From the NCBI GenBank assembly GCA_031292565.1, contig JARLGW010000001.1, positions 868,001 to 932,000 on the forward strand: a DNA stretch of 64,000 bases. The letters run 5' to 3'. Shown piece by piece: positions 7,508 to 24,745 of this stretch. A model generated the notes under the pieces. It was given only the letters and a program-made list of their open reading frames with translations. It searched no databases and was not told where the DNA came from. Position numbers and translations under genes: made by a program. This DNA comes from Paludibacteraceae bacterium. Its GTDB lineage: Bacteria; Bacteroidota; Bacteroidia; Bacteroidales; Paludibacteraceae. Position 1 is the first letter of the stretch. Each line of letters starts with the position of its first letter.

Positions 7508-9295
7508 ATGAAAAATATTCGCAACTTTTGTATTATAGCTCATATTGACCACGGGAAAAGTACCCTTGCCGATCGCTTACTGGAATATACCAACACGGTA
7601 TCGGGCAAAGCCATGCAAGCACAGGTGCTGGACGACATGGATTTGGAACGTGAGCGAGGCATCACCATCAAGAGCCACGCCATCCAAATGAACTACACCT
7701 ACAAAGGAGAACAATATGTACTGAACCTGATAGATACCCCGGGGCACGTGGATTTCTCCTACGAAGTGTCACGCTCCATAGCTGCCTGCGAGGGCGCACT
7801 ACTTATTGTGGATGCCACACAGGGCATACAGGCTCAAACCATATCCAACCTATACATGGCGTTGGAACATGACCTGGAAATTATCCCGGTGATGAACAAG
7901 ATGGATATGGACAGTGCCATGCCCGAAGAGGTGGAGGATCAGATTGTGGAACTACTGGGCTGCAAGCGGGAAGAGATTATCCGCGCCAGTGGCAAAACAG
8001 GTATGGGTATCGACGAGATTCTTTCCGCCATTATAGAACAGGTAAAAGCTCCCGTGGGTGACCCGGAGGCTCCACTGCAATGCTTGATTTTCGACTCGGT
8101 GTTTAACTCCTTCCGCGGAATTATCGCATACTTCAAAATTATAAACGGCACCATTAATAAAGGTGACCTGGTGAAATTTGCGGCCACCGGAAAAGAATAT
8201 AATGCCGACGAAATAGGCATACTAAAACTAGAGATGAGCCCTACCAAAAGCTTAGGTGCGGGAAATGTAGGCTATATTATATCCGGTATTAAAACATCCA
8301 AAGAAGTAAAAGTGGGCGATACCATCACCCACGTGGCTCGTCCTTGTACTAAAGCCATCGCGGGGTTTGAAGAAGTAAAGCCAATGGTATTTGCCGGGGT
8401 ATATCCTATCGAAACAGAGGATTTTGAAGACCTTCGGGCTTCGATGGAAAAGCTCCAACTGAATGATGCTTCGCTCACGTTTGAACCCGAATCGTCTATG
8501 GCACTCGGCTTTGGTTTCCGTTGCGGATTCCTGGGCATGCTACACATGGAAATTATACAGGAACGACTGGACAGGGAATTCGACATGAGCGTGATTACCA
8601 CCGTGCCCAACGTACAATACAAAGTATATACCCGAAAAAACGAACTGATAGAAGTGCACAACCCTTCGGGCTTGCCCGACATCACGATGATAGACCGTAT
8701 TGAGGAACCTTATATCCGTGCATCCATCATTACCAAAACTTCGTTTATCGGACAAATAATGACGCTTTGCCTGGGTAAACGTGGTGAACTTATTAAGCAA
8801 GATTATATTTCGGGCGACCGCATCGAACTGATTTATGAGATGCCGTTGGGCGAAATCGTGTTCGACTTTTACGATAAACTAAAAAGCATCTCCAAGGGTT
8901 ATGCTTCTTTTGATTATCACATGATTGACTTCCGCCCTTCCAAGCTGGTAAAGCTGGATATATTGCTCAACAGCGAACCCGTGGATGCCCTTTCGTCACT
9001 CATTCACTTTGACAACTCGGTGAACCTTGGCCGACGCATGTGCGAGAAGCTACGCGAACTTATCCCCCGCCAACAGTTTGATATTGCCATACAAGCAGCT
9101 ATTGGAGCTAAAATCATTGCCCGCGAAACCATCAAAGCCGTGCGCAAGGACGTAACCGCCAAATGTTATGGAGGTGATATTTCGCGTAAACGAAAATTGC
9201 TGGAAAAACAAAAGAAGGGTAAAAAACGTATGAAGCAAATAGGCAACGTGGAAGTACCACAAAAAGCTTTCCTTGCCGTGCTGAAACTGGATTAG
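7508..9295 (+). CDS. lepA: Elongation factor 4 (LepA), ribosome-associated GTPase
   Basis: At 595 aa it has the standard length. GTPase motifs are complete: P-loop [13 protein letters not shown] near residue 11, switch region [19 protein letters not shown], and NKMDM for guanine recognition. The EF-G-like domains follow, including [13 protein letters not shown], and the LepA-specific C-terminal domain with basic residues [22 protein letters not shown]4 acts on the ribosome and influences translocation and subunit biogenesis. In many proteobacteria lepA precedes lepB; here it is a single-gene unit with its own promoter and terminator. Confidence 0.98.
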
Positions 9296-9321
9296 ATTTA
9301 TCCTAAAAACATTATATAACG

Positions 9322-9358
9322 AGGCTGCCCGAAAAGTAAAATACTTTTCGGGCAGCCT
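9322..9358. terminator. Bidirectional terminator between lepA and the TonB-dependent receptor gene
   Basis: A perfect 17-bp stem (9322-9338 with 9342-9358) with a 3-nt loop lies between convergent genes. The forward side runs into TAAATTTTT, so it can stop lepA transcripts and probably the leftward five-gene unit as well. Confidence 0.85.
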
Positions 9359-9377
9359 TAAATTTTTCACCCTCTTG

Positions 9378-11729
9378 CTAAAAATCTATTTTATAACTCA
9401 GCACAGGTAATACCATCGTTATATCATATTCATCCACTTTTTTAGTTTGATAATTATAATAGAAGCCTGCATTGATAGGTGTACACAATAGGTTCTTAAT
9501 TTGCAAAGCCCAGGTAGTTGAATATTTTCGTTTATTTATCTTGTAGGTCAACGTCAAATCCATGTAATAAACGGGTTTAAATTGTTTATCAAAAGCCTTA
9601 GTCTGGTCATACAGCACATCTTTGGTTGCCTCATCGGCAGTGTATGGCGTATAATGGTCGCCACCCAATATATTCAATCGCCCGTTAACCCCAAATACCC
9701 TATTGTTCTTCCTAAAAAACTCCTTCCCTATCACAAGGTTCATTACATAGCCTTTATTAAAACGGGTGCTACGCCATACCCCATCACCCGCCTTATATTT
9801 TGAGCTGAACAAAGAAACCGTCATCAAGTAATAATAATTGTCGTTCATAAAACGCTCCAAGGTAAAGTCCACACCAATGTTTCTACCCTCACAGTTATTC
9901 ACCAACGAATCGCGAAAAGTTTCGTCCTGAGTGAAATTTATCATGGAAAACGAACTATCCCTTATACCCGGCACATGATACAGGTATTGAAAATATGATT
10001 CCGCTTTGAAACGAAGCTTTTTACTTATAGCCCAATCATACCCCAACACAAAATGATGTGCCTTAGAGAAATCAAGCGATTGGTTTGGATAATAATCTTT
10101 CCCGTTTACCAGATAATGCACCCTGTAAATTCTCAATTCCTCTAGCTGGCTGTGGTTGCCATACCCAAAGCTAAACGTCTGTTTTTCGGTAGCCTGCCAT
10201 TTCACCGCGAAGCGGGGTTCAAAAGAATGTTTTCCGCTCAAGGCAAAATAATTAAAATGCAAGCCACCCGAAATATTTAGGTTGGAAGTAATATCATATT
10301 TATGTTGCGCGTAAATCTCCGTGAGCGAAGTGCTTGCTTTTTCATCCACGAAAGTTTGGTAAGTAGCAGGCTTATTCTCTTCTTCCGTGGTACTCATTTT
10401 TAAATTATAATACATCAAGTTGTGGCAAAACCCTACCCGTAACATGTTAGCTGCATTAAACTTATAGTTTATTACAGAACTCAATATCACCTTCCCCGAA
10501 TTGTTTCTAAGATAAGTATCCGGGCGAGGCACCAAATTATCGTCCAAACGATTAAAAGTCCATTCGTTGGTAGCCCCTGTGGCCGCTATGCTCGTATTGG
10601 TATAAGCCTGTTTATTCAACTTATATTTATGCGAAAGGCCACAAGCACCCATTTCCTGCGTACTTGTATATGTCTGCCTATCTATATTATATTTCCATTT
10701 GGCAGAATCCTGTTCATACGGCTTTTCATTTTTATCCAAGCCACCAATACCCCACAAAGCAAAAGTGCCGACTTTTCGGGTAGGAAAATTCAATTTAAAA
10801 GAAAAATCCTGGTATTTAGGCACTTCGTCAGTAGTTAATAAACCTACCTTACTAAACAAACCAGTGGTGGAATACCTATAATTAAACAAATAGGATGAAC
10901 CGCTTTTTTTACAGATAGGGCCTTCCGACGAAACGTCGATTCCCAACAGCCCCAATTGAATAGCATGTTCGTATTTCTCATTATTTCCTGTTCGTAACTT
11001 CATGTCAAACACTCCGGCCAACGCGTTTCCATATTCAGCAGGAAAAGCCCCCGTGTAAAAATCAGAATTTGACATCATCTGGCTACTGAAAATTGTAACG
11101 GCTCCCCCGCCCACCATATTACCACCTGCAAAATGGTTGGGGTTGGCTATATCCACGCCTTCCAATCGCCACGATACCCCTTTGGGCGAGTTACCACGAA
11201 CCACGATACCATTATCCTGTACGTTTCCTACGGCAACCCCGGCAAAGGCGGATGCCATACGAGCCGGATCGTCCAACCCTCCGGCATAACGGCGGGTTTC
11301 CTCCACGGTAAACGAACGGGCACTTATCATAGCCATCGTATTTAATGGTTTATCCTTTGGCGAACGTACCGTGATCGACTTTAATTGATTTACCGATTGT
11401 TTCAACCCTACGCTTACCTCTACTTCTTTTGCCGAGGACACCAACACTTCGGACACCGAGGTGGAATCATAACCTATATAGCTTATTTTCAGATTATATC
11501 GACCAATAGGCACTTCGGTAATTTTGAAATCACCATTCATATCCGTAACGCCACAAAGCGAAGGGTCAGCCAATTGAACACAAACAGATGCGCCTATTAA
11601 TGGCATTTGCGTTTCATTATCCACCACCTTTCCCTTTATTACCTGAACCAGTTTTTGAGCTCGCAACGGGATGAAAAAAAGCAATAGCAGTACTAACGCG
11701 TTAGCTATAACGCGACAACAATTTTTCAT
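9378..11729 (-). CDS. TonB-dependent receptor with N-terminal carboxypeptidase-regulatory-like domain
   Basis: The start is placed at 11729 because this Met begins a clear signal peptide (MKNCCRVIANALVLLLLFF), giving 783 aa. A CarboxypepD-reg-like beta-sandwich follows (about 30-105, with VDNETQMPLIGASV), then a plug domain (RSFTVEETRRYAGGLDDPAR, NGIVVRGNSPKG) and a long beta-barrel ending in an aromatic strand (LSYKIDF). It should be an outer-membrane importer energised by TonB-ExbBD. No SusD partner follows, so it is not a standard SusCD glycan pair. It lies downstream of a sigma/FecR unit on the same strand, but a 293-bp gap filled by palindromic repeats separates it from the preceding gene, so cotranscription is uncertain. 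The substrate is unknown. Confidence 0.9.
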   Translation of the reverse strand: MKNCCRVIANALVLLLLFFIPLRAQKLVQVIKGKVVDNETQMPLIGASVCVQLADPSLCGVTDMNGDFKITEVPIGRYNLKISYIGYDSTSVSEVLVSSAKEVEVSVGLKQSVNQLKSITVRSPKDKPLNTMAMISARSFTVEETRRYAGGLDDPARMASAFAGVAVGNVQDNGIVVRGNSPKGVSWRLEGVDIANPNHFAGGNMVGGGAVTIFSSQMMSNSDFYTGAFPAEYGNALAGVFDMKLRTGNNEKYEHAIQLGLLGIDVSSEGPICKKSGSSYLFNYRYSTTGLFSKVGLLTTDEVPKYQDFSFKLNFPTRKVGTFALWGIGGLDKNEKPYEQDSAKWKYNIDRQTYTSTQEMGACGLSHKYKLNKQAYTNTSIAATGATNEWTFNRLDDNLVPRPDTYLRNNSGKVILSSVINYKFNAANMLRVGFCHNLMYYNLKMSTTEEENKPATYQTFVDEKASTSLTEIYAQHKYDITSNLNISGGLHFNYFALSGKHSFEPRFAVKWQATEKQTFSFGYGNHSQLEELRIYRVHYLVNGKDYYPNQSLDFSKAHHFVLGYDWAISKKLRFKAESYFQYLYHVPGIRDSSFSMINFTQDETFRDSLVNNCEGRNIGVDFTLERFMNDNYYYLMTVSLFSSKYKAGDGVWRSTRFNKGYVMNLVIGKEFFRKNNRVFGVNGRLNILGGDHYTPYTADEATKDVLYDQTKAFDKQFKPVYYMDLTLTYKINKRKYSTTWALQIKNLLCTPINAGFYYNYQTKKVDEYDITMVLPVLSYKIDF

Positions 11730-11820
11730 GATAATTTTATTTATTTTTACAGTAAAGAGGTTACAAACCAAAGTTCGATATAAGAGAAAATATTATATAT
11801 TTGACAAACAGACAATTGTT

Positions 11821-11960
11821 CTCCGTAGGAGATTGATTTCAATAGAAAAAAGCTTATATATAAAAACCTTTTCCCGTAGGGAATACATATATTTATCCCC
11901 TCACGGGGAACAGGTTCTTCTTGTTTTGCTTTTCTATTGAAATGTATTGCCTACGGCAAA
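11821..11960. repeat. Intergenic palindrome array / miniature inverted-repeat element, copy 1
   Basis: Four short palindromes lie in 140 bp: CTCCGTAGGAG (11821), TTCCCGTAGGGAA (11871), CCCC-TCAC-GGGG (11897) and TTGCCTACGGCAA (11947). A perfect 14-bp inverted repeat (11836-11849 and 11930-11943) bounds the two inner ones, giving a 108-bp unit. The same unit, inverted and including the flanking TTGCCTACGGCAA palindrome, is at 58244-58372. No protein is encoded. Confidence 0.8.
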
Positions 11961-12022
11961 AAATACATTGATTATCAAAATTTTAAATATATTTTTATAT
12001 CAAACAGGTTACAAGCATCGGG

Positions 12023-13204
12023 TTACAAAAACCGCAAACCGATTTTCACACCTGCCCAGCTCTTTAGGTTATACCTGCCACTCGTCTCGTTGGTGAAAGA
12101 GTACGGAGCAATTGAGGAATAAGTTTCATCGTAACGGGAATTGCCTGTGTCGGTAGAAAGAAAATTGTAAGTCAAAGCTACAAACACTGAAGTTTTAGCA
12201 CCTATATTACGGTCGATACCCACGGCAATCTTGTACAAGCGGTTATTGGTACAAACATCCGATTCTTTAATAATTTGCTGATAAGAAAGATCAACATCAA
12301 GCAATGTTTTTTCATTTAACGAAAAAGAAGACCCTACGCCCCAGCCATAGTTCCACAACGGACTGTCGAAATTATTCGGACGCATACCTACTATAAGCAT
12401 GGTGTGGAATTTCTTTATTCCCGAACGAAATGCCACATTGGTATAAAAAAGTTCATCACCCGAAATCTCCAGTTTATGATACCCTCCTTTTTTCACCCAA
12501 TTAATAATGCCCACAGGAGTACCTTCGCAAGTATCGGAAACATTGATAAATCCTACCTGTGTTCCCTTCAACCGCGAAGTGCTGTTGAGCAAGCCTGATA
12601 TTTGAACGCTCTTTACTTCTTTTGCATGGTTTATCAATCCGGCTATCTGCACATTAGCAGAACCTTTGGCATTATTAACCACACCGGCTATTTGGCATTT
12701 ACCTGCACTCGAAGCATTGTTCAACAAACCGGATATTTGAACGGCAGCCGTATCGGTAGTAATATTTGCAGCCCCGGCACATTGCACGTTGGAACCTTTG
12801 GACACGTGGTTTACCAGCCCGGCTAATTGCACACCCGAAGCCGACTTTGCAAAATTGAAAACACCGGCTCCTTGAAACCCGGAGGAAGAACCGCCCACGC
12901 AGTTACCGATTCCGACCAACTGGCATTTGCCTGCATCGCGCCGATCGAAATTGACAATGGAACCCATTTCAAACCCTTGTACTTGATTAATGCTACCTGC
13001 TAAAATATTGATAGAGACGTTGCAGGAAACTTTGTCGGAGGAAAAACCATCCGTTCCCAAATAAGGAAGGATGGACACTTGACCCTTACGATGAACAACA
13101 TCGTCGGACGAAGAAGCTTGCTTTTGAATGGATTGAGAATAAAGATCGGGAAAAGTGAAAAAGAAAGCCCCTATAAAAAAGGCAAGAATAATGTTAGTTT
13201 TCAT
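12023..13204 (-). CDS. Secreted 15-residue-repeat solenoid protein with C-terminal barrel-like domain
   Basis: The protein has 393 aa and a signal peptide (about 1-24). Residues 65-240 are about eleven tandem repeats with a strict 15-residue period in the middle (consensus xxVQIAGLxNxAxxx; the V/C position recurs at 125, 140, 155, 170, 185 and 200). The last 150 residues, starting at GYHKLEIS, alternate hydrophobic and polar residues and end in LRFL, which resembles an outer-membrane barrel. Similar GxxN repeats occur in Leptospira surface proteins (LA_2272 type, from memory). It is a paralogue of the next gene upstream: repeats and C-terminal domain align, but the STN domain is missing. The gap to that gene is 72 bp, same strand. 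Function unknown. Confidence 0.75.
   Translation of the reverse strand: MKTNIILAFFIGAFFFTFPDLYSQSIQKQASSSDDVVHRKGQVSILPYLGTDGFSSDKVSCNVSINILAGSINQVQGFEMGSIVNFDRRDAGKCQLVGIGNCVGGSSSGFQGAGVFNFAKSASGVQLAGLVNHVSKGSNVQCAGAANITTDTAAVQISGLLNNASSAGKCQIAGVVNNAKGSANVQIAGLINHAKEVKSVQISGLLNSTSRLKGTQVGFINVSDTCEGTPVGIINWVKKGGYHKLEISGDELFYTNVAFRSGIKKFHTMLIVGMRPNNFDSPLWNYGWGVGSSFSLNEKTLLDVDLSYQQIIKESDVCTNNRLYKIAVGIDRNIGAKTSVFVALTYNFLSTDTGNSRYDETYSSIAPYSFTNETSGRYNLKSWAGVKIGLRFL
12485..13012 (-). repeat. Coding tandem repeats, 45-bp period
   Basis: This stretch encodes residues 65-240 of the 393-aa protein: about eleven units of 15 residues with recurrent VQIAGLxN cores. The DNA copies have diverged although the protein period is exact, so selection acts on the fold rather than on recent DNA duplication. 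Confidence 0.75.
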
Positions 13205-13276
13205 AAGAGTGTTGTTTTGTTTTATAACTCTATGACAACCTTATGAAAGCATACCCCCACGAGGCATGAAAAAAAA

Positions 13277-15181
13277 TTAAAAAAATCGCAAAGCGGCGGT
13301 AGCACCCACCCAAGTTTGCAGCAACCTACCACCGGAAGAGGTTTGAGTAGTTAAAGTATAAGGAGCAAGATGCCGGTAATCATCGTAATGATTGGATTCT
13401 GTATCGCTGACTAATACATTATATGATACCCCTAAGGCAATGGACATTTTTTTAAACACCTTCCGATCAACCCCCACGTATAACCGGCTTTGATGACCGG
13501 AGTAATCAACGTATCGGGAAGTAAAAAACCTGTGAGACGACAAGTCTATATCCATAAGCCATTTATCAGGATTACCAAAAGAAAGCCCCAACCCAAAACC
13601 ACAAGTGTAAAGTCCCACGGAATTATTAGTGGCAACCCCCGCGGCAAATATGGTATGCAGGAACTTCATCCCGGTGCGGAAAGAGAGATTGGCAAACGAC
13701 ATTTCGTTGTAAGACACTTCCAATTTATGATAGCCCGATTTGCAATAGCTGAACACCCCCACGGGAACTCCCGAACAGGAGTCGGATAAGTTTATAATAC
13801 CCAACTGCAAAGCTTTCACCTTACGAGCCTTATTTATAAAACTCGAAACTTGCACGCTGGCTTCGGTGGCAGTATTAACACAGCCCGATAGTTGTATGCC
13901 TACCGTATCGGCCGTATTAACCAAACCCGTGGCTTGTATCCCCACCGAATCAGCTCGGTTTGTTAAACTCGAAAATTGTATATCGGCTTTAGCTGAACGA
14001 TTTAACAGCCCCGACACTTGCACCCCTGCTTTAGTTCGAGCCCGGTTGTACAGTCCGGCTACTTGCAGCGGAGACTCCGAAGCTACATTAAGAAGCCCGG
14101 CCATTTGCATCATTTCATTTTGTTGAGCCTTATTGAGCAAGCCGGATAATTGCACCTTGGATTTCTGCGTTATATTTACAATACCCGCAAGTTGTACAGG
14201 TGCTACACTTGAAGCCATATTTACAACCCCGGCACATTGCACGCCTTTTACGGTATCGGAATAATTTAAAATTCCGGCACCTTGAAATCCGGTAGACGTT
14301 CCGCCTGTTAAATTTCCAATTCCGGCCAATTGGCACACACCTGCATCTGTTCGGATAATGTTAAGCAAGCCTGCAAACGTAGCCTTTCGCACGCTATAGG
14401 CATATCCCACTGTTAAATTTAGGGCAACATCGTTGCCCGTGTTTCCGCTCAACAAAGCATTGGTGCTGACAAGCGGCATAAGCGAAATCTGTACTTTACG
14501 GAAAACAGAATCGGTAAGGTTGCGCGAATGAACTTTGAGCTGCTTGGGTATAAGCCACGAAGGCATGATGCTACGCCAAGCCACCACGGGCTTTTTTTTC
14601 GTGGCCAAGGTATCATTTTGCAAATCTACTTCTATTATGTCTTTAGCTTTATCGGCATCGGCAAGCAATAAAGTATCCACATATCCTTTTTTGCTAATAT
14701 GCAAATCGGTAAGCGATTTATTGGCTGGTACTTTTAAGCTGAAATACCCATATTGGTCGGTTATGGCGGCAACTCCTAACTTTTTGTCGTACACGCTAGC
14801 CTCGGTAAGCTTGGCTCCCGATTTTTTATCATAAACATAGCCTTCCAGTTTCTTTGTTTCCTGATTTAGAGCTGAATTTTTCCGCAAAATAACATAATTT
14901 CCTTTGGCTTTGTAACTAACCTCGTCGTGAAACATAGCGTTTAGCACCATTTTCACAGGCTTGTTTGTCATATTTAAGCTTACCGGGTTATGCACACCAA
15001 CGGCTGTAGGGCTGTAGGAAAACACCAACCCTGCCTGTTTGGAAACGGAGGTAAGTACATTTTCCACAGGCTGATTGCTCACCTCCACGGTAACACGGCG
15101 TTCCAACACAGAGCCTGAGGTTTGAGCATGCAGCAGAATACCAAAAAAAAGGAAGAATATAGGAGTAACGAATCGCATCAT
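13277..15181 (-). CDS. STN-domain / carboxypeptidase-regulatory-like / 15-residue-repeat solenoid surface protein
   Basis: Four regions are visible (numbering from the alternative ATG at 15199): signal peptide; STN domain (about 30-105, with FSYSPTAVGV and MTNKPVKMVLNAMF); carboxypeptidase-regulatory-like domain (about 117-193); about fourteen repeats of 14-16 residues (274-487, consensus VQLAGLxNxA); and a 150-residue barrel-like C-terminus ending LRFF. STN domains normally sit on TonB-dependent receptors or secretins and talk to FecR-type anti-sigma factors. The fecR-like gene is directly upstream, so this protein probably feeds the sigma pathway, by inference. ATG 15181 is chosen because the signal peptide then starts with a short basic N-region; ATG 15199 would overlap fecR by 14 bp. 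Confidence 0.75.
   Translation of the reverse strand: MMRFVTPIFFLFFGILLHAQTSGSVLERRVTVEVSNQPVENVLTSVSKQAGLVFSYSPTAVGVHNPVSLNMTNKPVKMVLNAMFHDEVSYKAKGNYVILRKNSALNQETKKLEGYVYDKKSGAKLTEASVYDKKLGVAAITDQYGYFSLKVPANKSLTDLHISKKGYVDTLLLADADKAKDIIEVDLQNDTLATKKKPVVAWRSIMPSWLIPKQLKVHSRNLTDSVFRKVQISLMPLVSTNALLSGNTGNDVALNLTVGYAYSVRKATFAGLLNIIRTDAGVCQLAGIGNLTGGTSTGFQGAGILNYSDTVKGVQCAGVVNMASSVAPVQLAGIVNITQKSKVQLSGLLNKAQQNEMMQMAGLLNVASESPLQVAGLYNRARTKAGVQVSGLLNRSAKADIQFSSLTNRADSVGIQATGLVNTADTVGIQLSGCVNTATEASVQVSSFINKARKVKALQLGIINLSDSCSGVPVGVFSYCKSGYHKLEVSYNEMSFANLSFRTGMKFLHTIFAAGVATNNSVGLYTCGFGLGLSFGNPDKWLMDIDLSSHRFFTSRYVDYSGHQSRLYVGVDRKVFKKMSIALGVSYNVLVSDTESNHYDDYRHLAPYTLTTQTSSGGRLLQTWVGATAALRFF
13739..14380 (-). 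repeat. Coding tandem repeats, period 42-48 bp
   Basis: It encodes about fourteen units of 14-16 residues with core V/I-Q-x-A/S-G-L-x-N in the STN-domain protein. The period is looser than in the neighbouring paralogue. Confidence 0.75.
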
Positions 15182-15185
15182 AAAG

Positions 15186-16205
15186 TTAGTTATCTGCATC
15201 TAAAGCATTTAGCAAGTAGCCTTTTTCAGTTTTAGACACTGTTAGGCCTAAGGTTGCCGACATTACATCTACAATTGAGGCTGTTTTTTCGTTGTTGAAT
15301 GTAACGGTAATTGTTTGATTGCCCAACTTGTTATCTCCCAGCAGAATGGCATCAGAATAAGCGGCATTAAGTTGTTTTATCACGTCGGACAAACGGGCAT
15401 TGACAAACACGAATTTACGGGTTTTGTATGCTACCGCGTTCGGATTGGCCACATTCGTTTTGGTAAACGTTTTTGTTTTCCTGCAATAAATACCTGTTTC
15501 GCCTTTGTGTAGCAAGATGCCCGACTGGGTGTTTGTGTAGAACGAAACTTCTCCATCCTGAACAAAGACTTCAATAGTAGGGCTTCCGGGCACCGCCTTC
15601 ACGTTGAAAGAAGTACCAATGTCTTCTATCAAGGTTTCCTGGGCTTTAACTACCAACTGGGTATCGGAAGCATGTGTAACATGAATAAAGGCTTCGCCCG
15701 AAAGGATCAATTCTTTTTTCTTTTCTTTTTTATTCTGTTTAAACACGATGGAGCTATTCTTGTTGAGGCATACCTGGGCATTACCGCCAAATGCATGCGT
15801 TACAGGCTGGCTATTGCTGGCAATAGTGTATTTCACCTCGTCCTGTTGCTTGCCCGAAAGTAAATGAAAAACAGCCGCAGAAACCAATACCAGCAAAAAG
15901 ATTGCGGCAACCTGCATCCACCGGTTTCTTATAAGTGGGTACGACTTGCGCTTCACCACCTCCGTTGGGGCGGGTTGACTATTCATTTTTGCTTTCACCG
16001 TTTGCCAAGCTTTTTCGGTATCAACCGGAATAAAGGGACGACAATTGCCGGCTTTTTCATATACAAGACGAAGTTCATCAACATACTTCCTGTTATCGAC
16101 CGAAGCCGACATCCATCCCTGAAGCAAATCATGCTCCTGCGGTGTGGCTTCACCTACAAGGTATTTGGCCACTATGACGTCGATATGTTTCTTACTTGTA
16201 ATCAA
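15186..16205 (-). CDS. FecR-family anti-sigma factor
   Basis: The protein has 339 aa. The N-terminal cytoplasmic anti-sigma region (VAKYLVGEATPQEHDLLQGWM) is followed by one membrane helix (about 96-114, VAAIFLLVLVSAAVF), the periplasmic FecR domain (GEAFIHVTH, VQDGEVSFYT) and a C-terminal STN-like DUF4974 region (RLSDVIKQLNAAYSD). FecR proteins hold an ECF sigma factor and release it when an outer-membrane partner signals. The start is TTG, overlapping the TGA of the sigma gene by four bases (TTGA); no in-frame ATG preserves the N-terminal domain. The expected partner is the STN-domain protein encoded immediately downstream. Confidence 0.9.
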   Translation of the reverse strand: MITSKKHIDVIVAKYLVGEATPQEHDLLQGWMSASVDNRKYVDELRLVYEKAGNCRPFIPVDTEKAWQTVKAKMNSQPAPTEVVKRKSYPLIRNRWMQVAAIFLLVLVSAAVFHLLSGKQQDEVKYTIASNSQPVTHAFGGNAQVCLNKNSSIVFKQNKKEKKKELILSGEAFIHVTHASDTQLVVKAQETLIEDIGTSFNVKAVPGSPTIEVFVQDGEVSFYTNTQSGILLHKGETGIYCRKTKTFTKTNVANPNAVAYKTRKFVFVNARLSDVIKQLNAAYSDAILLGDNKLGNQTITVTFNNEKTASIVDVMSATLGLTVSKTEKGYLLNALDADN

Positions 16206-16816
16206 AAAATATTTGATATTATGATTAACACAATGGTTATAAAATAATCCTTCAATTGCACTCGCATAATGCGCAACGCTTTACCCATCTGGTTTTCAAC
16301 TGTTTTCACAGCAATGTTTAGTTGGTCGGCTATTTCGGCATACGTGAGATCTTCAAAACGGCTCAATCGAAACACTTTACCACATTGTGGAGGAAGTGAT
16401 TCCACCGCGTCGGCTATTAAGCCTTCCAATTCGTGAGTTAAAATAGGTTGGGTCGTGTCCATGGGTTCGTCCCCCTCCACGTGTTTCACATAATCACCAT
16501 GAGCCTGCCTCACTTTATTATGTTTTATCTGATTAAAACATCTGTTTCGCACGGATTGATATAGATATGACTTTACCGAGATTTGAATATTTAGCTCCGC
16601 TCGTTTTTCCCAAAGAAGGAGAAAAATGCTTTGCACCACCTCCTCGGCCTCGGCCATATCGTTCACAAAAGTATTGGCATAATTGCACAAGCATTCATAA
16701 TATGTTTTGAATACCTGCTCAAAAGCCGACTCATCGCCTTGCTGTAATGCTTTTGCTATTTTGCTATCCGTTAATGACACACAATCTTCTTTTAAATACG
16801 GATCAACATAGGGCAA
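16202..16816 (-). CDS. ECF-type RNA polymerase sigma-70 factor
   Basis: The protein has 204 aa. Region 2 (AFEQVFKTYYECLCNYANTF, AEEVVQSIFLLLWEKR) and region 4 (LPPQCGKVFRLSRFEDLTYA, AEIADQLNIAVKTVENQ) are both intact, as in the Bacteroidota FecI-like group. The last 14 residues are hydrophobic (FITIVLIIISNIF), an unusual tail for a cytosolic sigma factor. It overlaps the fecR-like gene by 4 bp, so the two are translationally coupled. Targets probably include its own operon. It is the first gene of the leftward unit. Confidence 0.93.
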   Translation of the reverse strand: MPYVDPYLKEDCVSLTDSKIAKALQQGDESAFEQVFKTYYECLCNYANTFVNDMAEAEEVVQSIFLLLWEKRAELNIQISVKSYLYQSVRNRCFNQIKHNKVRQAHGDYVKHVEGDEPMDTTQPILTHELEGLIADAVESLPPQCGKVFRLSRFEDLTYAEIADQLNIAVKTVENQMGKALRIMRVQLKDYFITIVLIIISNIF

Positions 16817-17001: not shown

Positions 17002-18585
17002 TTATTTTTTGTTTTTCTTCTTCTTGGCTTTTGGCTTTTCGTCTTGAACCGTGTAACGGGTAAATATATCCATCTTGTTTTTCGGACGGATGCCATCCAG
17101 CCACATGTATCTGGACACGTATTTTTTATCATCCGGTACCTGGTCAATAGGATACATCGTACCCGTTGAAGCCGGAATCATTACTATCCGCTCAATTTTT
17201 TTATTCTTTAAATAGGTGGTGAGGGTACTACTTTCCGCTCGATTTACCCCGATTAAGCTGCCATCATTATCCCGCGGATGATACACCGCGATAGCATTTC
17301 CTTCTACCTTAACCTTACGCACCTGATTGTCTTTAATATATGCTTTCAGCGTTTTACCCTGTATCTGATTGAAGTGGGTAGAATCGACCTGAGAAACGAC
17401 CAATGCCCAACCCTTTACCCAAATCATATCGGCTTTTTTGTTCTTTTGATATAGTTGAATAAACTCGCCACAAATTTGTGCGGAGTCGGACCACAACACA
17501 GGTCGCTCGTACATATTGAGTATAGAATCGGTGGTGGAATACGATACTGAATCGCATTTCCCCTGCAAATCGGCTCTAAAGAAACGTACATTACCAATAC
17601 CTCGCATTTTATGATAGGTGGAATCACCTTTGGTTTTAAGCGTATCGGCATGTAAATAAAGAGAATCTGTTCCTGAAAAATCAACAGCATAGGCCGAATC
17701 CCTCATCAGACCATCGTCGCCGTTTTGCACGAAGTTACCATAACGCCCACGCACCAGCATCTTTTGTACACTATCCGTGAGTTGTACATGCTGCCGGGCT
17801 ATCATTTTACCCGTTTTCTTGTTATAAAAAATGGTGTCTGCTTTTAATTTTTTACCGCCAAAATGATTTACATACGAATTTTTCATCAATTGGCAGTCAT
17901 CCGTATTGGTATTGTACCAACCGTTTTCGGTATATATTTTTGTCTTTTCGTTGTACCAAATATTGGTAGGAACGGAGAAATATGCGATTTTCTGTTTGGA
18001 GTTATACTTTAACACCTCGGTTCTAAGAGCTAAATTCTTATTGTCCAAATGAACATTTTCTCTAAACGTAAACAGATTTGTTTTAAACGATAGATCTCCT
18101 TTTTTGGAAGTAAGCACATTTTCCTTATCCGTGATGCGCCCACCAGTATAGTAATAACCAATGTTATTGGCCTGATCGAAATCAAGACTATCGGTTTCCA
18201 AAACAGTATTATGATGCACTACCCGCACATGCCCTTTAATACGAGCCATGTGAGTATTTCCATCGTAATGCAAAATTTCGCCATATATACGGAGCGAATC
18301 GCCCTGCACAATACGTATGTTACCAAATGCATCTATTTTGTTACGTTGTTCGTAAAAATTAGCTACATCGCAAAACAACCGTGTATTACCCTGCCTAAAA
18401 ACAACGTCATTTCTTAAAACCTGACAATCAGCCTGTTGCTTCTGATCAAAAGAAAGAGTTCCTGAATGTTCGAGAAAAATAGGCGACTTGCCTTGTGCTA
18501 CGACAATAACATTAAACAAGCATAAAGCGCAAAATAACGCTATATGCTTGCTGTATGAAATAAACTTAAAACTTGTTCCTATCAC
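17002..18585 (-). CDS. OstA/LptA-like LPS-transport domain protein
   Basis: The protein has 527 aa. After a hydrophobic N-terminal signal (about 10-30), most of the length is OstA-type beta-jellyroll repeats (RNDVVFRQGNTRLFCD, FGNIRIVQGDSLRIYGE, IKGHVRVVHHNTVLETD), as in LptA and the N-terminal part of LptD. Bacteroidota have such long OstA-like proteins, thought to help carry LPS across the periplasm. The C-terminus ends in a very Lys-rich tail (KPKAKKKKNKK). It lies 7 bp behind the SurA-like gene on the same strand, so it is coexpressed with periplasmic chaperones. It is longer than LptA (about 185 aa) and lacks the LptD barrel. Confidence 0.85.
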   Translation of the reverse strand: MIGTSFKFISYSKHIALFCALCLFNVIVVAQGKSPIFLEHSGTLSFDQKQQADCQVLRNDVVFRQGNTRLFCDVANFYEQRNKIDAFGNIRIVQGDSLRIYGEILHYDGNTHMARIKGHVRVVHHNTVLETDSLDFDQANNIGYYYTGGRITDKENVLTSKKGDLSFKTNLFTFRENVHLDNKNLALRTEVLKYNSKQKIAYFSVPTNIWYNEKTKIYTENGWYNTNTDDCQLMKNSYVNHFGGKKLKADTIFYNKKTGKMIARQHVQLTDSVQKMLVRGRYGNFVQNGDDGLMRDSAYAVDFSGTDSLYLHADTLKTKGDSTYHKMRGIGNVRFFRADLQGKCDSVSYSTTDSILNMYERPVLWSDSAQICGEFIQLYQKNKKADMIWVKGWALVVSQVDSTHFNQIQGKTLKAYIKDNQVRKVKVEGNAIAVYHPRDNDGSLIGVNRAESSTLTTYLKNKKIERIVMIPASTGTMYPIDQVPDDKKYVSRYMWLDGIRPKNKMDIFTRYTVQDEKPKAKKKKNKK

Positions 18586-18592
18586 TTGTATC

Positions 18593-19948
18593 TTATTTTT
18601 TTATCCAGTTTGGATATTGAAATGTACATTTTTGCCAATTCGGATCAATATAAACATAGGTTTCCTTTTGTTTATTTTTAATCCATTCGTTTAGTATTTC
18701 CGAGCTTTTCTTATTTTGAACAGAGGCTTTCAATTGCTGATAGTCTTCCTCTATATTCGCTTTATGCTGCTCGGTTTTGGATTTTATTTTGATAATAACA
18801 CACACTTCCCTACCCGATTCGTTAGTCATGGTAAACGGTTCGGAAACAGTTCCTACAGTTAAATTATACGCCTTTTTTGAAATTTCAGATGGCAATCCTT
18901 GATATTCAAATTTTGAAGTTCCGTCTTGTGAGTTATTCATCAAACCACCACTCATACGGGTATCTTTATCATCAGAAAACAATAAAACGGCATTCTCAAA
19001 AGTCACTTTTCCCACACGAATAAGATTGCAAATACTATCCAACCTGTTTGTTGCCTTTAGTTTTTCGGATGTTTGTACTTTAGGTTTTAATAGGATGTGA
19101 CGGCAATTTACTTTATCGCCACGTCGTTCAATTAACTGAATGATATGAAACCCAAACTCGGTTTGAATAACATGTGATACTTTTTTCGGATCAGTGAGGC
19201 TGAATGCTTCTGCTGCAAATTCAGGTACCAATTGTGCTTTGCCCATAAACCCTAGCTCGCCCCCTACTTTTGCCGAAGTTACATCGTCCGAATACAGGGT
19301 TGCCAACATTGAGAATGAGGCATCTCCACTTTCCACCCGTTGCTTAAAATCACGAAGCTTCGTTTTGATTTCTTCTATTTGCTTGGGGTCGTAAGCCGGA
19401 GCAATAGTTAATATTTGCACTTCAACTTTATCCGCAATAAGAGGAATTTCATCATCTTTCATTTTGGAATATGCCTTTCTTACTTCGGAAGGTGTTAACT
19501 TGATGGTTCCTACCAACTTTTGTTGTACTTGCTGAATCAGCATTTGCTCCCTTGCCTGGGCTTGAAGCTCTTCATTGATTTGTTTTATGGTTTTTCCAAA
19601 ATATTCTTCCAGTTTTTCCTGAGAACCGATTTGAGAAATCATGTCATTCACCCGCTGGTTTACCTGCATGGTAACGTTACCTTCATTGGCCGTTAAACTA
19701 TCTGTTTTGGCCTGATGCAAAAAAAGCTTACGTATAGCCAATTGTTCAGGTACTATACAATACGGATCCCCGGTAATATCGGTTTTTTCATACTTCATCT
19801 GTTGAATTTGTTTTTCAACATCCGATTTAAGTATTGATTCATCACCCACCACCCAAACAACTTCATCTATTACATTGTCCTGTGCCAAAGCAGAACCCGA
19901 CACTAAAGTAAGTACGAATAAGATGAAAAGTTTTATTCTTTTTTGCAT
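18593..19948 (-). CDS. surA: SurA-like periplasmic peptidyl-prolyl isomerase
   Basis: The protein has 451 aa, close to E. coli SurA (428). A signal peptide ends at about residue 22 (SGSALAQ); the SurA N-terminal chaperone domain (DEVVWVVGDESILKSDVEK) and two parvulin domains follow, the first with GGELGFMGKAQLVPEF and FGFHIIQLIERRGD, the second starting at NCRHILLKPK. SurA chaperones unfolded outer-membrane proteins to the BAM complex. It is the fourth gene of a five-gene unit with 7 to 51 bp gaps. The second parvulin domain is less conserved, as in SurA. Confidence 0.9.
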   Translation of the reverse strand: MQKRIKLFILFVLTLVSGSALAQDNVIDEVVWVVGDESILKSDVEKQIQQMKYEKTDITGDPYCIVPEQLAIRKLFLHQAKTDSLTANEGNVTMQVNQRVNDMISQIGSQEKLEEYFGKTIKQINEELQAQAREQMLIQQVQQKLVGTIKLTPSEVRKAYSKMKDDEIPLIADKVEVQILTIAPAYDPKQIEEIKTKLRDFKQRVESGDASFSMLATLYSDDVTSAKVGGELGFMGKAQLVPEFAAEAFSLTDPKKVSHVIQTEFGFHIIQLIERRGDKVNCRHILLKPKVQTSEKLKATNRLDSICNLIRVGKVTFENAVLLFSDDKDTRMSGGLMNNSQDGTSKFEYQGLPSEISKKAYNLTVGTVSEPFTMTNESGREVCVIIKIKSKTEQHKANIEEDYQQLKASVQNKKSSEILNEWIKNKQKETYVYIDPNWQKCTFQYPNWIKK

Positions 19949-19989
19949 ATATTTATATTGTTGTGAAAATGTTTTTTATCTACGTTTAT

Positions 19990-20853
19990 CTATTTCTCAT
20001 TTTTGTAATAGGTTACTTTTTTTCCTTTCACAGCATCTTGATATAGCTTATCTTCAAACTTTTGAATAAAGTCATTTTTCAGCTTGTTCATTAAAATGGT
20101 TTGAATCTTATCCTTTGCCATTTCATACGGTTCAATGCTGCCACTTAGCTGACAACTAAGTATTCGGATGATGTAATGATAACGACTGTCTGAAACCTCA
20201 ATGTACTTGTTTCGCGAAATAAAATTAGCTTGATCTTCAATCTTTATAGGTATATCTTTTACTACATCGTTAAACAAAGTCCACTTATCGCCGAAATATT
20301 GATAATTGGTTGCATTCTGAATGCTATATTTTTCTACGGTTTCAACAGATTTGGCATTGAAATTACGCAGCCAATTTTGCAGGTTTGCATATTTAGGGGC
20401 ACCCAACGGTACTTTAATAAATATTCCTTTTACAATATTGTTAGTCAGCTGAAACTTGTCTTTATTCTGATTGTAAAAATCGAGCATCTGCTCGTCCGTA
20501 GGCCCGTCACCAAGCTTTTCTTTGATTAAATTTTGCTGATATTGGTGTATTATAAGCGATTTTCTATAATCCTCCACCAAATCTTCTATCTCATCTTGAT
20601 TCGAAATATTTCGTTCGGCATGATCGTACACCAACGCATCAGTTACCCATTTGCGCACATAGTTATTTACAATAGACAAGCTGTCCTGACGGCTACATCC
20701 TTTTGGTACAACAGATTGGATTTCATCAAGATACAGGTATTTACCTTTTATTTCCAAATAGGGAACACGGGATTCATCTTTTTTGTCGGATTTCTTACAG
20801 CCGCACAAAACGGCCATACAACTTAGAAACAAAAAGATGCGTATTAACTTCAT
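19990..20853 (-). CDS. Lipoprotein, SurA/PpiC-like foldase-related
   Basis: The protein has 287 aa with a lipoprotein signal peptide (lipobox AVLCGC, modified Cys at about residue 19). The N-terminal helical region (RQDSLSIVNNYVRKWVTDAL, DEIEDLVEDYRKSLIIHQYQ) resembles the chaperone part of SurA/PrsA proteins, and a degenerate parvulin-like region follows. No convincing catalytic motif is seen, so it is more likely a chaperone than an isomerase. It lies between two clear parvulin genes in the same direction, which supports a role in outer-membrane protein folding. Confidence 0.7.
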   Translation of the reverse strand: MKLIRIFLFLSCMAVLCGCKKSDKKDESRVPYLEIKGKYLYLDEIQSVVPKGCSRQDSLSIVNNYVRKWVTDALVYDHAERNISNQDEIEDLVEDYRKSLIIHQYQQNLIKEKLGDGPTDEQMLDFYNQNKDKFQLTNNIVKGIFIKVPLGAPKYANLQNWLRNFNAKSVETVEKYSIQNATNYQYFGDKWTLFNDVVKDIPIKIEDQANFISRNKYIEVSDSRYHYIIRILSCQLSGSIEPYEMAKDKIQTILMNKLKNDFIQKFEDKLYQDAVKGKKVTYYKNEK

Positions 20854-20904
20854 TTGTTAGTTTTGGATAAAGGTAAGCCTATTGTTTTATAGTCAACTAT
20901 AAAC

Positions 20905-22827
20905 TTAATTCTTATTAACCGTTTTTAAAACTTCTTCATTTACAATAACCTGATATTTTGCCTGCAAGGATTTAATCCACTCCGATTCCAAATAAGTTTG
21001 GTAATCTTGTATCACGGCTCCTTTTACATCCTGATAGCTTTCGGGGTCGGTGTCCAACACTTTACCATCCACCCACACTATTTTAAAATCATTGGGAGCT
21101 TTATACGCCCCTGTATTGAAAGCATAATAGTCCACCACTTTATTGTCGCCTTTGGCAAACAAGTTTTTCTCCGATTTCACCACGATATTGGCTTTTGTAT
21201 TCAAAGCATTCAATCGTTTATCAATAGAATCTTCCGGTTCATTTTTAAGTATTAGCTTAACTTGAGCAACCGTTTTCTTATCTTTGCATGACAGCACTCG
21301 GCCTTTGAAATGAGGCACATCCCATTTGTATTTAGCTTTATTCTTTTCAAAGAAACGACGTAAGCCCACCGTATCGGCAGATGCTTTTTCCCAAACTTCG
21401 CTGTTGCTGACGTTGAACAACAAAATGCCATCTCTATATTCCTGCATCAAGTTTCGGAAGTCGAAATGACTTTGTTCTAAATGACTGTCCTTATAATTAA
21501 TTAGCAAACTGCTTACATAAGCATCCAAATCACTTTGAATATTTGCAGCATGGAGCTTTCTATCCTTTATATAAGTTACAAACTCGTTAGTGGTATAAGC
21601 CTTGTCGGCAAATTTAAACAGTGGGTTCGCTATTTTTTGTGCTTCTACAATAAACAGCGAATCTTTCCACTGAACTTTTTGCGCTATTTTTTCCAATTTA
21701 AGCAACTGCTTTTGGTTTTGTTCATAATGATATTCTCTTTTCAAGGTAGCAACAAAAGCATCTTGAAGCATCTGAGCACGATCGGTTTGCCCTATTTGAG
21801 CTTTTAATCCGGCACTTACGTCCTGATAGGTATCAATAGGTTTTTTGCCTAAAAGCTTTATAATGTGCCAACCATACTCGGTTTTGATAGGGGCTGAAAT
21901 TTGTCCCGTGTCGCTTAAAGCATAGGCAGCATCTTCAAAGGCTTTCACCATGTTTCCAGGGCCAAACCAGGCTAACTCGCCATTATTCTTGGCACTGTAA
22001 GTATCCTCCGAATTTTCTTTGGCTAATTTTCCGAAATCTTCACCTGCTTTAGCCTTGGCATAAAGAGCTTTTATATCAGCTTCGGCCTTGACATTTTTTC
22101 CAGGCATGGTATCGTTGGTTAATTTCATGATATGTGCCACATGGATTTTACCTTTTCCCGGTCTCGTTGCATTTATTTTAAGGATATGGTATCCAAACAT
22201 GGTTTGCACGGGTTTCGATATTTTACCTACAGGGGTAGTATAGGCTAAGGTTTCAAACGGATAAACAGTCCACATGGCGGACAAATAACCTAAATGACCT
22301 CCGTTTTTCTTAGCCGAAGGGTCGTCGGACACCTCTTTAGCCACTTTTTCAAAGTCTTCTTTTTGAAGTCGATTCTCTATTTCAAGAGCCTTTTTGTAGG
22401 CTGCTAAGGTATCGGCAGGCGTTTTGTTCCCTTCTATTTTTATCAATATGTGGCTCACGTCAACATCTTGCTTCATCCGTTCGTATTCAAGCTTCATCAA
22501 TTGATTTCGAACATTGGTATCGGATAGGAAGGGTGCGGCCAACTGCCTACGATATCCGTCCAATTCGTTTTTAAAACTGCTCACGGTATCCAGATTTTGA
22601 GCTCTGGCCTCGGCAACTTTTAGCTTAAATATTTTAAACAGCTCGAGATACTCCGGTAGCGATTTTTTATCAGCCATTTGGGCTGAATTGTTTTTATTAT
22701 AAAGATATTCAAAGTAGGACTTAGGTATCTTTTCTCCATTGATTGTTAATAAAGTCTCTTCTTCCGAAAACGCCCAATTAGCTAAAGAAAACAAAGCTAC
22801 AATAATCAATATCCTTTTCATCGTCAT
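20905..22827 (-). CDS. Periplasmic parvulin-type peptidyl-prolyl isomerase with two PpiC domains
   Basis: The protein has 640 aa and a signal peptide (about 1-21). Two full rotamase domains follow: the first with VSHILIKIEG, GGHLGYLSAMWTVYPFE and FGYHILKINATRPG, the second with HVAHIMKLTND, NGELAWFGPGNMVKAFE and YGWHIIKLLGKKP. A long helical C-terminal part (about 360-640) has no clear relative I can name. It probably assists folding of exported proteins. A second Met two codons in (22821) is an equally good start. Second gene of the leftward envelope unit. Confidence 0.88.
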   Translation of the reverse strand: MTMKRILIIVALFSLANWAFSEEETLLTINGEKIPKSYFEYLYNKNNSAQMADKKSLPEYLELFKIFKLKVAEARAQNLDTVSSFKNELDGYRRQLAAPFLSDTNVRNQLMKLEYERMKQDVDVSHILIKIEGNKTPADTLAAYKKALEIENRLQKEDFEKVAKEVSDDPSAKKNGGHLGYLSAMWTVYPFETLAYTTPVGKISKPVQTMFGYHILKINATRPGKGKIHVAHIMKLTNDTMPGKNVKAEADIKALYAKAKAGEDFGKLAKENSEDTYSAKNNGELAWFGPGNMVKAFEDAAYALSDTGQISAPIKTEYGWHIIKLLGKKPIDTYQDVSAGLKAQIGQTDRAQMLQDAFVATLKREYHYEQNQKQLLKLEKIAQKVQWKDSLFIVEAQKIANPLFKFADKAYTTNEFVTYIKDRKLHAANIQSDLDAYVSSLLINYKDSHLEQSHFDFRNLMQEYRDGILLFNVSNSEVWEKASADTVGLRRFFEKNKAKYKWDVPHFKGRVLSCKDKKTVAQVKLILKNEPEDSIDKRLNALNTKANIVVKSEKNLFAKGDNKVVDYYAFNTGAYKAPNDFKIVWVDGKVLDTDPESYQDVKGAVIQDYQTYLESEWIKSLQAKYQVIVNEEVLKTVNKN

Positions 22828-22858
22828 TTAAATATTTATAAAATAAAATCTATTTATA

Positions 22859-24745
22859 TTAATACAAAGGCAAAGAGTAACCGGCACCCAAAGTTAAAAA
22901 TTCAGCATCCGTCTTATGTGTTTTTACAGCCACCACGCCAAAGAGTCTGTTGGTGAACCTATATTTTAAAGCAAGTCTGTAATAAATTGACTCATCAGCA
23001 GCTTTAATGTTGTCATACACGTAAAAACCACCGTCAAGAGCAACAGCTACTCTTCCTAGCACAAATTCATTCGACAAACAAATTCCACCCCTCATTAAGG
23101 AAGTGAATTTTGATCTATCGTAGGTTGAGTTTTGATACGATGCAAGCTTTGGATATGCTGCCTTAAAGGCATCATCAACGCCACCTACTTTAACATCTTT
23201 AAATGCTTCATCATAAAAGCCATCAAGACCTAACCCAAGCCTATAGATATTAGCCATTTGGTAATACACAGTGGTATTAAAGTTACCTACCGCGTATTTT
23301 TTGTCAGATTGATACATTTCTCGTACGCCACCCATACCCATTACGTCAAAGGTGAAATAATGAGGTATTTCATCCGGTTTTTGGCGCAACACTTGGGTAA
23401 CAGGCGTTGGCGTGTATTTTAAAGACAACGAGCCTGCCAGGATATTAAGCCCCGTGTTGGGCGTGGAGAAATTTCCGTTGGACATATGTATCAACGACAC
23501 TCCGGCACTTATAGTATAATGTGATTGGCGCTCCTGCTCATCGCTGCCAACAAGCGTTACCGGGCGGATATTCACGCCAAATCCTGTTTTAATAAATACA
23601 TTGACGGGAGACCCTATAAGATAGCTACCATTGGTTGAAGGATCTATAGCTTCCCCTGAAGTAGTTTTATCATATTTGGTAATATAGCTTACCCCGAAGC
23701 CATTACTGAAATTAAAATCGATTGCCTTCGAACGTATAATAGGTATATCTACATACGGGTAAACGGCAAATGCCTGCCCCAACCGTTGCTCGTTACCTAA
23801 ATTCAGATAGGTCAACGCGAAACCATAAGATGGCAGATTGAAATAGTGATGCCAGTTTTTGTTTCCTTGCGTAGGGTATTCGATAGCCAATTCGGCGCCC
23901 AACACCGGACGCACATCAACCCCGTCTATTTGTTTGTTAATCTTATCCGTGTGCTTTAATATACTTCCGGCAATAAGAGAAAATTTATAGAAATATGGTT
24001 TGTCAAAAGTTACATCTTTACTGAAACTGGTACTTTCGAAGTCGCTCCACGATTTCGGGGTGTTATCCTCCCGCTGATAAACTGGTGGCGCTCCGGCTTC
24101 GTTGGATGGTGCATTACTCCAACTGTTGTTTCCACCCGACCGTCGACCCGAAGATGAATGGCCGGCACCGCTACTAGCCCAAATGCCACCACCCGATGAG
24201 CTGGATATTTTTTTATTTTTAGCCCACGAATCGTTGGCTTTGCCTCTCGAACCGTGTCGTTTAGAGCCACCCGTATCCCAGCCATCATAGTCGCTGGTAG
24301 CCATACGCATTTTCTTACCGCCTTTGGAAAACGGATCGTAGCCACCGCCCCCTTTATATTTTTTGTTGCCCGATGAGGCAAAGGGATCGAATCCACCAGA
24401 ACTGCTTCGTTTGCTTTTTTTATTCGAGGCAAAGGGGTCGAACCCACCTCCACCTTTATGTTTTTTGCGGTTGCTTTCCGCTTCAAAGGGGTCGAATCCA
24501 CCGGCAGTGCTTTTTTTACTACTACCACTTCCAAAAGGATCGAACGCGTGTCCGTTTCTTTTCCTTGATTTGTATCCCTGCCCGTTGGAATAGGATCGAC
24601 CAGCGGTTTTGCTTCCCGTTAGTTTAATAGCCTTTTTCTTAGCTGCTTTATTTCTTCCTTTAATAGAACAATCCTCGCCTAAGCACTGCGCACTCAAGGT
24701 GTAGCTTATAAAAATGCTTAAAATGAGGAAGAGGTATTTTTTCAT
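22859..24745 (-). CDS. PagL-like lipid A deacylase / acyloxyacyl hydrolase with N-terminal DPF-repeat tract
   Basis: The protein has 628 aa with a signal peptide (1-20). Residues 21-245 are a basic, Gly/Ser/Lys-rich low-complexity tract with five FDPF/YDPF units at 68, 84, 102, 119 and 136. From about residue 250 an outer-membrane barrel domain resembles Bacteroidota acyloxyacyl hydrolases; the PagL-type catalytic motif is HMSNGN with His420 and Ser422, followed by TPNTGLN. PagL removes the 3-O acyl chain of lipid A in the outer leaflet. Family members are usually 180 to 400 aa, so the N-terminal tract is an addition. It is first in the leftward operon of foldases and OstA, and divergent from gldF-surE-lpxB. 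Confidence 0.75.
   Translation of the reverse strand: MKKYLFLILSIFISYTLSAQCLGEDCSIKGRNKAAKKKAIKLTGSKTAGRSYSNGQGYKSRKRNGHAFDPFGSGSSKKSTAGGFDPFEAESNRKKHKGGGGFDPFASNKKSKRSSSGGFDPFASSGNKKYKGGGGYDPFSKGGKKMRMATSDYDGWDTGGSKRHGSRGKANDSWAKNKKISSSSGGGIWASSGAGHSSSGRRSGGNNSWSNAPSNEAGAPPVYQREDNTPKSWSDFESTSFSKDVTFDKPYFYKFSLIAGSILKHTDKINKQIDGVDVRPVLGAELAIEYPTQGNKNWHHYFNLPSYGFALTYLNLGNEQRLGQAFAVYPYVDIPIIRSKAIDFNFSNGFGVSYITKYDKTTSGEAIDPSTNGSYLIGSPVNVFIKTGFGVNIRPVTLVGSDEQERQSHYTISAGVSLIHMSNGNFSTPNTGLNILAGSLSLKYTPTPVTQVLRQKPDEIPHYFTFDVMGMGGVREMYQSDKKYAVGNFNTTVYYQMANIYRLGLGLDGFYDEAFKDVKVGGVDDAFKAAYPKLASYQNSTYDRSKFTSLMRGGICLSNEFVLGRVAVALDGGFYVYDNIKAADESIYYRLALKYRFTNRLFGVVAVKTHKTDAEFLTLGAGYSLPLY
24329..24544 (-). 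repeat. Coding repeats, five DPF units of 16-18 residues
   Basis: It encodes residues 68-139 of the PagL-like protein. Each unit has (G)GFDPF followed by a Ser/Lys-rich linker; spacing between units is 16, 18, 17 and 17 residues. The DNA copies remain similar (GGGTCGAA words recur on the forward strand), which suggests fairly recent duplication. Confidence 0.8.

Follow-up and report, generated by a model that had tools for sequence, protein, structure and literature searches.

A candidate outer-membrane transducer with an STN head, a solenoid arm and a small barrel, encoded beside a sigma/FecR pair in Bacteroidota

Cell-surface signalling is usually presented as an additional task of TonB-dependent transporters. 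In a 64,000-nucleotide stretch of the Paludibacteraceae bacterium contig JARLGW010000001.1 (hereafter the window), five open reading frames (ORFs) at 9378-16816, all on the minus strand and with the sigma gene first, encode an extracytoplasmic function (ECF) sigma factor, a FecR-type regulator, a 640-residue protein with an STN signalling domain, a solenoid arm and a small barrel, a solenoid paralogue of that protein, and a TonB-dependent receptor, as an earlier note on this DNA had described. We consider it probable that the 640-residue protein is a dedicated outer-membrane transducer for the adjoining sigma/FecR pair, and not a TonB-dependent transporter. Sensing would then be separated from uptake, because the signalling head is on a protein that has no domain of a transporter, and the sigma/FecR pair stays with this head even where the receptor is missing. 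No account of STN-solenoid-barrel transducers was found in the open-licence literature, among the matches listed (titles and abstract starts). Some members bear the NCBI name 'STN and carboxypeptidase regulatory-like domain-containing protein', so the proteins themselves are already annotated.

Domain structure of the candidate transducer and its neighbours

The first 231 residues of this candidate transducer, scored alone, match the Pfam STN family at 28.6 bits (cut-off 28.4), with no single stretch reaching E 0.01 by itself. CarbopepD_reg_2, the carboxypeptidase-regulatory-like domain (CpD) that follows, scores 31.1 bits in the whole ORF and 32.8 bits in this N-terminal piece (cut-off 32.2). 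The predicted model has the strands and helices of an STN domain at residues 35-107, and Foldseek aligns it with the signalling domain of PupA (2a02; target TM-score 0.72, E 0.023). Among the N-terminal regions of the window protein and 69 relatives, STN is matched in 64 of 70 and CarbopepD_reg_2 in all 70 (E ≤ 0.01), fractions that are favoured by the way the relatives were fetched, since the two patterns used lie in these same two domains. The location of STN on a non-receptor protein beside sigma and FecR, as first noticed, is thus upheld, by a profile check that is marginal in the window itself and by the matches in relatives. The Pfam scan of the transducer returned no Plug, no TonB-receptor barrel and no TonB-C match. 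In genomes of the window's own family, the ORFs whose N-termini match the STN-CpD head are mostly of about 1100 residues.

The arm that follows had been read as about fourteen 15-residue repeats, and we recover 12 regular units of Q..G..N type at residues 290-450 with a spacing of 14-16 residues, a further one at 274 that matches a loose pattern, and a degenerate one at 465 that was read by eye. The C-terminus, residues 487-640, is modelled as a complete 8-stranded barrel of OmpA type, the predicted structure having eight antiparallel strands and an aromatic residue at its C-terminal end. The C-terminal peptidoglycan-binding OmpA domain is not among the Pfam matches of the transducer.

The sigma factor matches NCBIfam TIGR02985 at 178.5 bits (E 1.1e-52, cut-off 126.4), and also the Pfam families Sigma70_r2 and r4_2. 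The regulator, which exceeds the cut-offs of both PF04773 (43.0 bits) and PF16344 (30.6 bits), comprises an N-terminal region, a hydrophobic segment near residue 99, where its hydropathy reaches a maximum of 2.54, a FecR domain (133-220) and an STN-like C-terminal part, FecR_C (264-326). A hydrophobic segment above threshold is present in the FecR of 68 of 72 relatives (locus L084, described below, being counted), and FecR together with FecR_C in all 49 regulators scanned.

Conservation of the unit

A scan of a one-genome-per-species collection (84,980 species) turned up relatives encoded at 91 places, and 80 of these loci were retained. In 74 of the 80 a full-length gene could be selected, with FecR ending within 200 bases in 72 and a sigma gene within 1.7 kb in 71. 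Two of the 74 picks are not transducers, one being a receptor taken by the selection rule (L068) and the other an STN-CpD-Plug protein (L084); with these removed, FecR adjoins 71 of 72 full-length relatives and sigma 70 of 72, the sigma misses being L057 and a locus on a cut contig (L010). In L068, from Algoriphagus vanfongensis, the transducer gene is split (L068:7914-9593) into a 170-residue STN-CpD ORF and a 385-residue arm-barrel ORF.

Downstream content was counted in the 58 loci that have at least 4.5 kb on that side. On the same strand and no more than 4 kb away, 27 have a receptor of the window's group; a second solenoid gene is found in 11, neither is found in 26, and the complete five-gene order occurs in six (L007, L008, L017, L018, L021 and L079). 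The core unit therefore has three genes, sigma, FecR and the STN-arm-barrel protein, and the receptor and paralogue are optional. The five-gene unit proposed in the earlier note survives in its first three members as a conserved core and not in its last two as fixed ones; the genome survey that it called for nevertheless shows a conserved arrangement, and neither of the results that it had named as fatal, a lack of STN similarity or genes never found together in relatives, was obtained. In 19 of the 58 loci (L015, L016, L029, L035-L037, L041, L043, L046, L048, L049, L053, L061-L064, L066, L067 and L083) the transducer gene is followed, at a distance of no more than 6 kb, by a gene for a DUF2807-like protein (head GIN domain), and Pfam confirmed DUF2807 in five of the five such genes scanned. 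None of the window's five genes is DUF2807-like.

STN-less arm-barrel proteins as a control

Arm-barrel proteins that have no STN head serve as a control. In 395 genomes of the phylum, searched with the family profile at E ≤ 1e-40, 54 gave a match, 17 over STN as well as the arm and barrel and 37 over the arm and barrel only, these counts being lower bounds because three candidates were scored per genome. The 17 are the window's own genome and 16 others, all of one class, and the 37 are from other classes. Neighbourhoods of up to 4 kb on each side were compared for 20 of the 37 STN-less copies and for all 16 other STN copies. FecR lies beside none of the 20 STN-less copies, compared with 15 of the 16 STN copies; sigma beside one (a weak, 61-bit match on the other strand), compared with 15; and a receptor beside none, compared with seven. 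By these counts the sigma/FecR pair accompanies the STN head; the TonB receptor tracks the pair less well. The paralogues beside the unit are STN-less copies near FecR, yet they are so only as neighbours of the STN form. The stand-alone arm-barrel proteins of loci L105-L124, in other classes of the phylum, have about 410-530 residues and no STN.

Membrane side of the arm

In an even-stranded barrel both termini lie on one side of the membrane, and the C-terminal end of OmpA-type barrels is periplasmic. Since STN, CpD and the arm all precede an even-stranded barrel, they should on the predicted structure be periplasmic, with the arm a stalk between barrel and head rather than an outer antenna, and the 'sensor arm' suggested at first could not easily be an outward one. 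Over 111 aligned rows the three presumed periplasmic turns have residue counts of 2, 3-6 and 2, compared with 2, 2-19, 4-14 and 17-33 for the four loops on the opposite side, a pattern that agrees with a periplasmic arm. It is very improbable, in our estimation, that the arm lies outside the cell, or that its primary role is another one such as adhesion or fibre nucleation, with STN a vestige or mere periplasmic anchor; the arm precedes an even-stranded barrel in chain order, a vestige would leave unexplained why the presence of STN goes with FecR, and the curlin repeat profile gave no Pfam match at E ≤ 1. As a periplasmic stalk the arm would span about 8 nm, an estimate based on about 17 coils, each assumed to hold one repeat and to add 0.48 nm, and not on atomic coordinates.

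The paralogue and the TonB receptor

The paralogue shares its repeats and barrel with the transducer (39% identity over residues 431-639 and 42% over 222-404) and has neither an STN nor a CpD match in Pfam, in agreement with its first description as a second solenoid protein without STN, placed between the transducer and the receptor. The window receptor matches PF13715 at 57.8 bits; Plug, at 16.3 bits, is below its cut-off, and STN has no match in the Pfam scan. Among 22 members of the receptor group that were scanned (the window and 21 of the 27 linked copies), CpD is matched in 22, Plug in 21 and STN in none, as had been claimed for the receptor at the end of the unit.

This receptor offers another way to read the unit. 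It might bind the ligand and pass its state on, within the periplasm, to the STN-arm protein and so to FecR, the two proteins together replacing one FecA-type receptor. The 27 linked loci would suit such an arrangement, as would three of the four Emticicia loci (L050, L052 and L054; not L082), where the receptor gene lies upstream in the opposite orientation, and the receptor profile finds a match at E ≤ 1e-100 in 18 of 20 genomes that we chose for the search. We nonetheless regard it as unlikely: in 31 of the 58 loci no receptor of the group is within 4 kb downstream, and the two remaining genomes of the 20, those of the Algoriphagus loci L064 and L083, have no receptor of this group at that threshold and retain sigma, FecR, transducer and paralogue. 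The third Algoriphagus, L068, does carry the receptor. For the first suggestion, that a solenoid sensor arm could replace ligand uptake as the signal, the bearing of these two genomes, which keep the core without a receptor match, is that this receptor group at least seems not to be required. Linked copies score 1116-1333 bits (877-882 in Emticicia), the best unlinked copies 771-977 bits and second copies in other genomes 551-867 bits. We take the receptor to be an optional partner or target of the unit.

Proposed mechanism and the points against it

In the mechanism that we favour, the OmpA-type barrel would anchor the transducer and the solenoid arm would hold the STN head out into the periplasm, as the predicted folds suggest. 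At rest, by analogy with FoxA/FoxR and PupB/PupR, STN may pair with the STN-like FecR_C and shield FecR from proteolysis. If the barrel, its outer loops or the arm then senses a change, this putative STN-FecR_C contact could be altered, upon which FecR would be cleaved and sigma freed to transcribe the unit together with its optional cargo (TonB receptor, solenoid paralogue and DUF2807 protein). More tentatively, and with slightly less than even expectation, we propose that these units form a TonB-independent branch of surface signalling, widespread in Bacteroidota, in which a rigid arm of the estimated length takes the STN head straight to FecR, and which originated when a SusC-type STN-CpD head was joined to a pre-existing arm-barrel protein. 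If true, this would be a built-in answer to a published puzzle, that of an outer-membrane signalling domain having to reach an inner-membrane regulator.

Several observations weigh against a dedicated transducer that acts directly on FecR. The STN match in the window is close to threshold, the whole 640-residue ORF scoring 25.2 bits and falling below the Pfam cut-off; six of the 70 N-terminal regions have no STN match at E ≤ 0.01; and for neither model did Foldseek return a solved structure at E ≤ 0.001. One transducer gene (L057) has an ABC ATPase upstream and no FecR nearby, and one STN form (L139, genome G485) lacks sigma and FecR alike at distances of up to 4 kb, so that its regulator may be encoded elsewhere. 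The control is confounded by taxonomy, all of the STN-less copies examined being from other classes. The receptor, being linked in nearly half of the loci, may share in sensing. The length of the arm ranges from 149 to 276 residues over the 111 aligned rows, a variation of 12% compared with 2.3% for the barrel, so that a fixed molecular ruler, at least in its strict form, is unlikely across species. Finally, in a distance correlation test (rank distances; 66 sets, the window and 65 loci) the partial values for FecR_C are weak, at 0.184 with STN, 0.165 with CpD and 0.127 with the barrel, and higher values link the barrel with the N-terminal region of FecR (0.362) and CpD with the FecR domain (0.333). 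Because the STN value is barely above those of other segments and other pairs correlate more strongly, the test says nothing for direct STN-FecR_C contact, and we dropped co-variation as a sign of it.

Gene layout and neighbouring DNA

Table 1. Features of the unit, in positions of the window
Feature	Position	Strand	Basis
ECF sigma factor, Bacteroidota type, first gene of the unit	16202..16816	-	TIGR02985; Pfam Sigma70_r2 and r4_2
FecR-type regulator	15186..16205	-	Pfam PF04773 and PF16344
Transducer candidate (634-640 residues): signal peptide, STN, CarbopepD_reg_2, linker, beta-solenoid, 8-stranded barrel	13277..15199	-	
STN signalling domain, residues 30-107	14879..15112	-	PF07660, model, Foldseek
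Carboxypeptidase-regulatory-like (SusC NTE-like) domain, residues 115-198	14606..14857	-	
Beta-solenoid arm and cap, about 14 repeats of 14-16 residues, residues 232-486, predicted periplasmic	13742..14506	-	
8-stranded OmpA-type barrel, residues 487-640, stop excluded, last residue Phe	13280..13741	-	
Paralogue, 393 residues: signal peptide, shorter repeat arm, same barrel	12023..13204	-	Identity to transducer
TonB-dependent receptor, CarbopepD_reg N-terminus, no STN, optional member	9378..11771	-	PF13715

The listed ORFs of sigma and FecR share four overlapping bases, that of FecR being listed from a TTG codon. The likely start of the transducer gene is the ATGATG at 15181, with the FecR stop 4 bases before it; this gives a protein of 634 residues, one fewer than the 635 first stated. 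The receptor ORF, listed as 797 residues from a TTG, has a likely ATG start at 11729. It is separated from the paralogue ORF by a gap of 251 bases (11772-12022) that contains several short palindromes built around either CCTACGG or CCGTGAGG; a search by pattern showed no excess in the window, the count being reached in 15 of 100 shuffles. Scans with promoter and terminator consensus patterns likewise gave no excess over shuffles (22 compared with a mean of 18.5, and 9 compared with 8.3). The receptor gene and a convergent 595-residue ORF (7508-9295) end on either side of a strong hairpin at 9321-9359, with 18 pairs and a 3-base loop, which is likely to be a terminator.

Upstream of the unit, on the same strand, the region 17002-24745 encodes an OstA-like/LptA-like protein and three proteins with PPIC peptidyl-prolyl isomerase domains, one of which scores just below the Pfam cut-off, and also holds a 628-residue ORF that matches the lipid A deacylase PagL. 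These neighbours bear on a further reading, in which the unit is an envelope-assembly sensor whose STN head signals failed barrel insertion or perturbation of the outer membrane and whose barrel binds no ligand. We hold this to be improbable. The small barrel with its mostly short loops, the envelope type of the optional cargo (receptor, solenoid paralogue and DUF2807 protein) and the position of the unit after the OstA-like and PPIC genes are what it would lead one to expect, but a search of the 80 related loci at E ≤ 1e-10 recovered no relative of the OstA-like gene or of the two PPIC genes that it covered, and a link of the unit to outer-membrane biogenesis was rejected on these grounds.

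Comparison with known systems

The arm's best structural match is the curli subunit CsgA (8c50), which is likewise a stack of coils (root-mean-square deviation 8.1), and its Q/N-bearing repeat presumably resembles the curlin repeats; unlike CsgA, however, the arm precedes a predicted membrane barrel. The LA_2272 repeat proteins (NF047436) are a family set by the repeat alone, to which the present unit adds STN, CpD and the sigma/FecR pair. The window's two solenoid proteins score 23.0 and 18.7 bits against the cut-off of 25 bits for this family, and of seven relatives scanned two pass (the paralogue of L018 at 123.3 bits and the transducer of L014 at 49.8), two fall short (20.7 and 23.1) and three have no match. 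The term 'LA_2272' was not found in the open-licence literature, among the matches listed.

With systems of the FecI/FecR/FecA type, such as FoxI/FoxR/FoxA and PupI/PupR/PupB, the unit shares an ECF sigma factor, a FecR whose C-terminus is STN-like and an outer-membrane-type protein that bears STN at its N-terminus, all encoded together. It differs in its transducer, which has a repeat arm and a predicted small OmpA-type barrel in place of any match to Plug or a TonB-receptor barrel. For FoxA/FoxR it is reported that, when there is no signal, the regulator is bound at its STN-like C-terminal part by the signalling domain and so protected from proteolysis (PMC11637429). A PupB/PupR complex has been solved and is proposed to form before the siderophore binds (PMC7186176).

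The SusC-type transducers of Bacteroidota come closer in their head, which has STN and CpD in the same order and stands beside a sigma-FecR pair. Locus L085 shows this ordinary version, in which sigma and FecR stand next to a receptor that carries both Plug and the STN-CpD head; there the head is followed by Plug and a TonB-receptor barrel, whereas here it is followed by the arm and small barrel. For SusC proteins in sigma/anti-sigma loci, one published account places the N-terminal extension (NTE) before STN (PMC7782687), an order that differs from the STN-first arrangement of both L085 and the window transducer.

An STN domain away from a TonB receptor is not first seen here; the earlier note had placed it, for known FecI/FecR systems, at the N-terminus of such a receptor. 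VreA of the PUMA3 system of Pseudomonas aeruginosa (VreA-VreI-VreR) is a precedent, with STN off the receptor and accompanied by an ECF sigma factor and a regulator (PMC2729926). VreA is given there as a 23 kDa protein that has no barrel and ends in a TolA/TonB-like domain, whereas the transducer described here has a predicted barrel anchor and a long arm.

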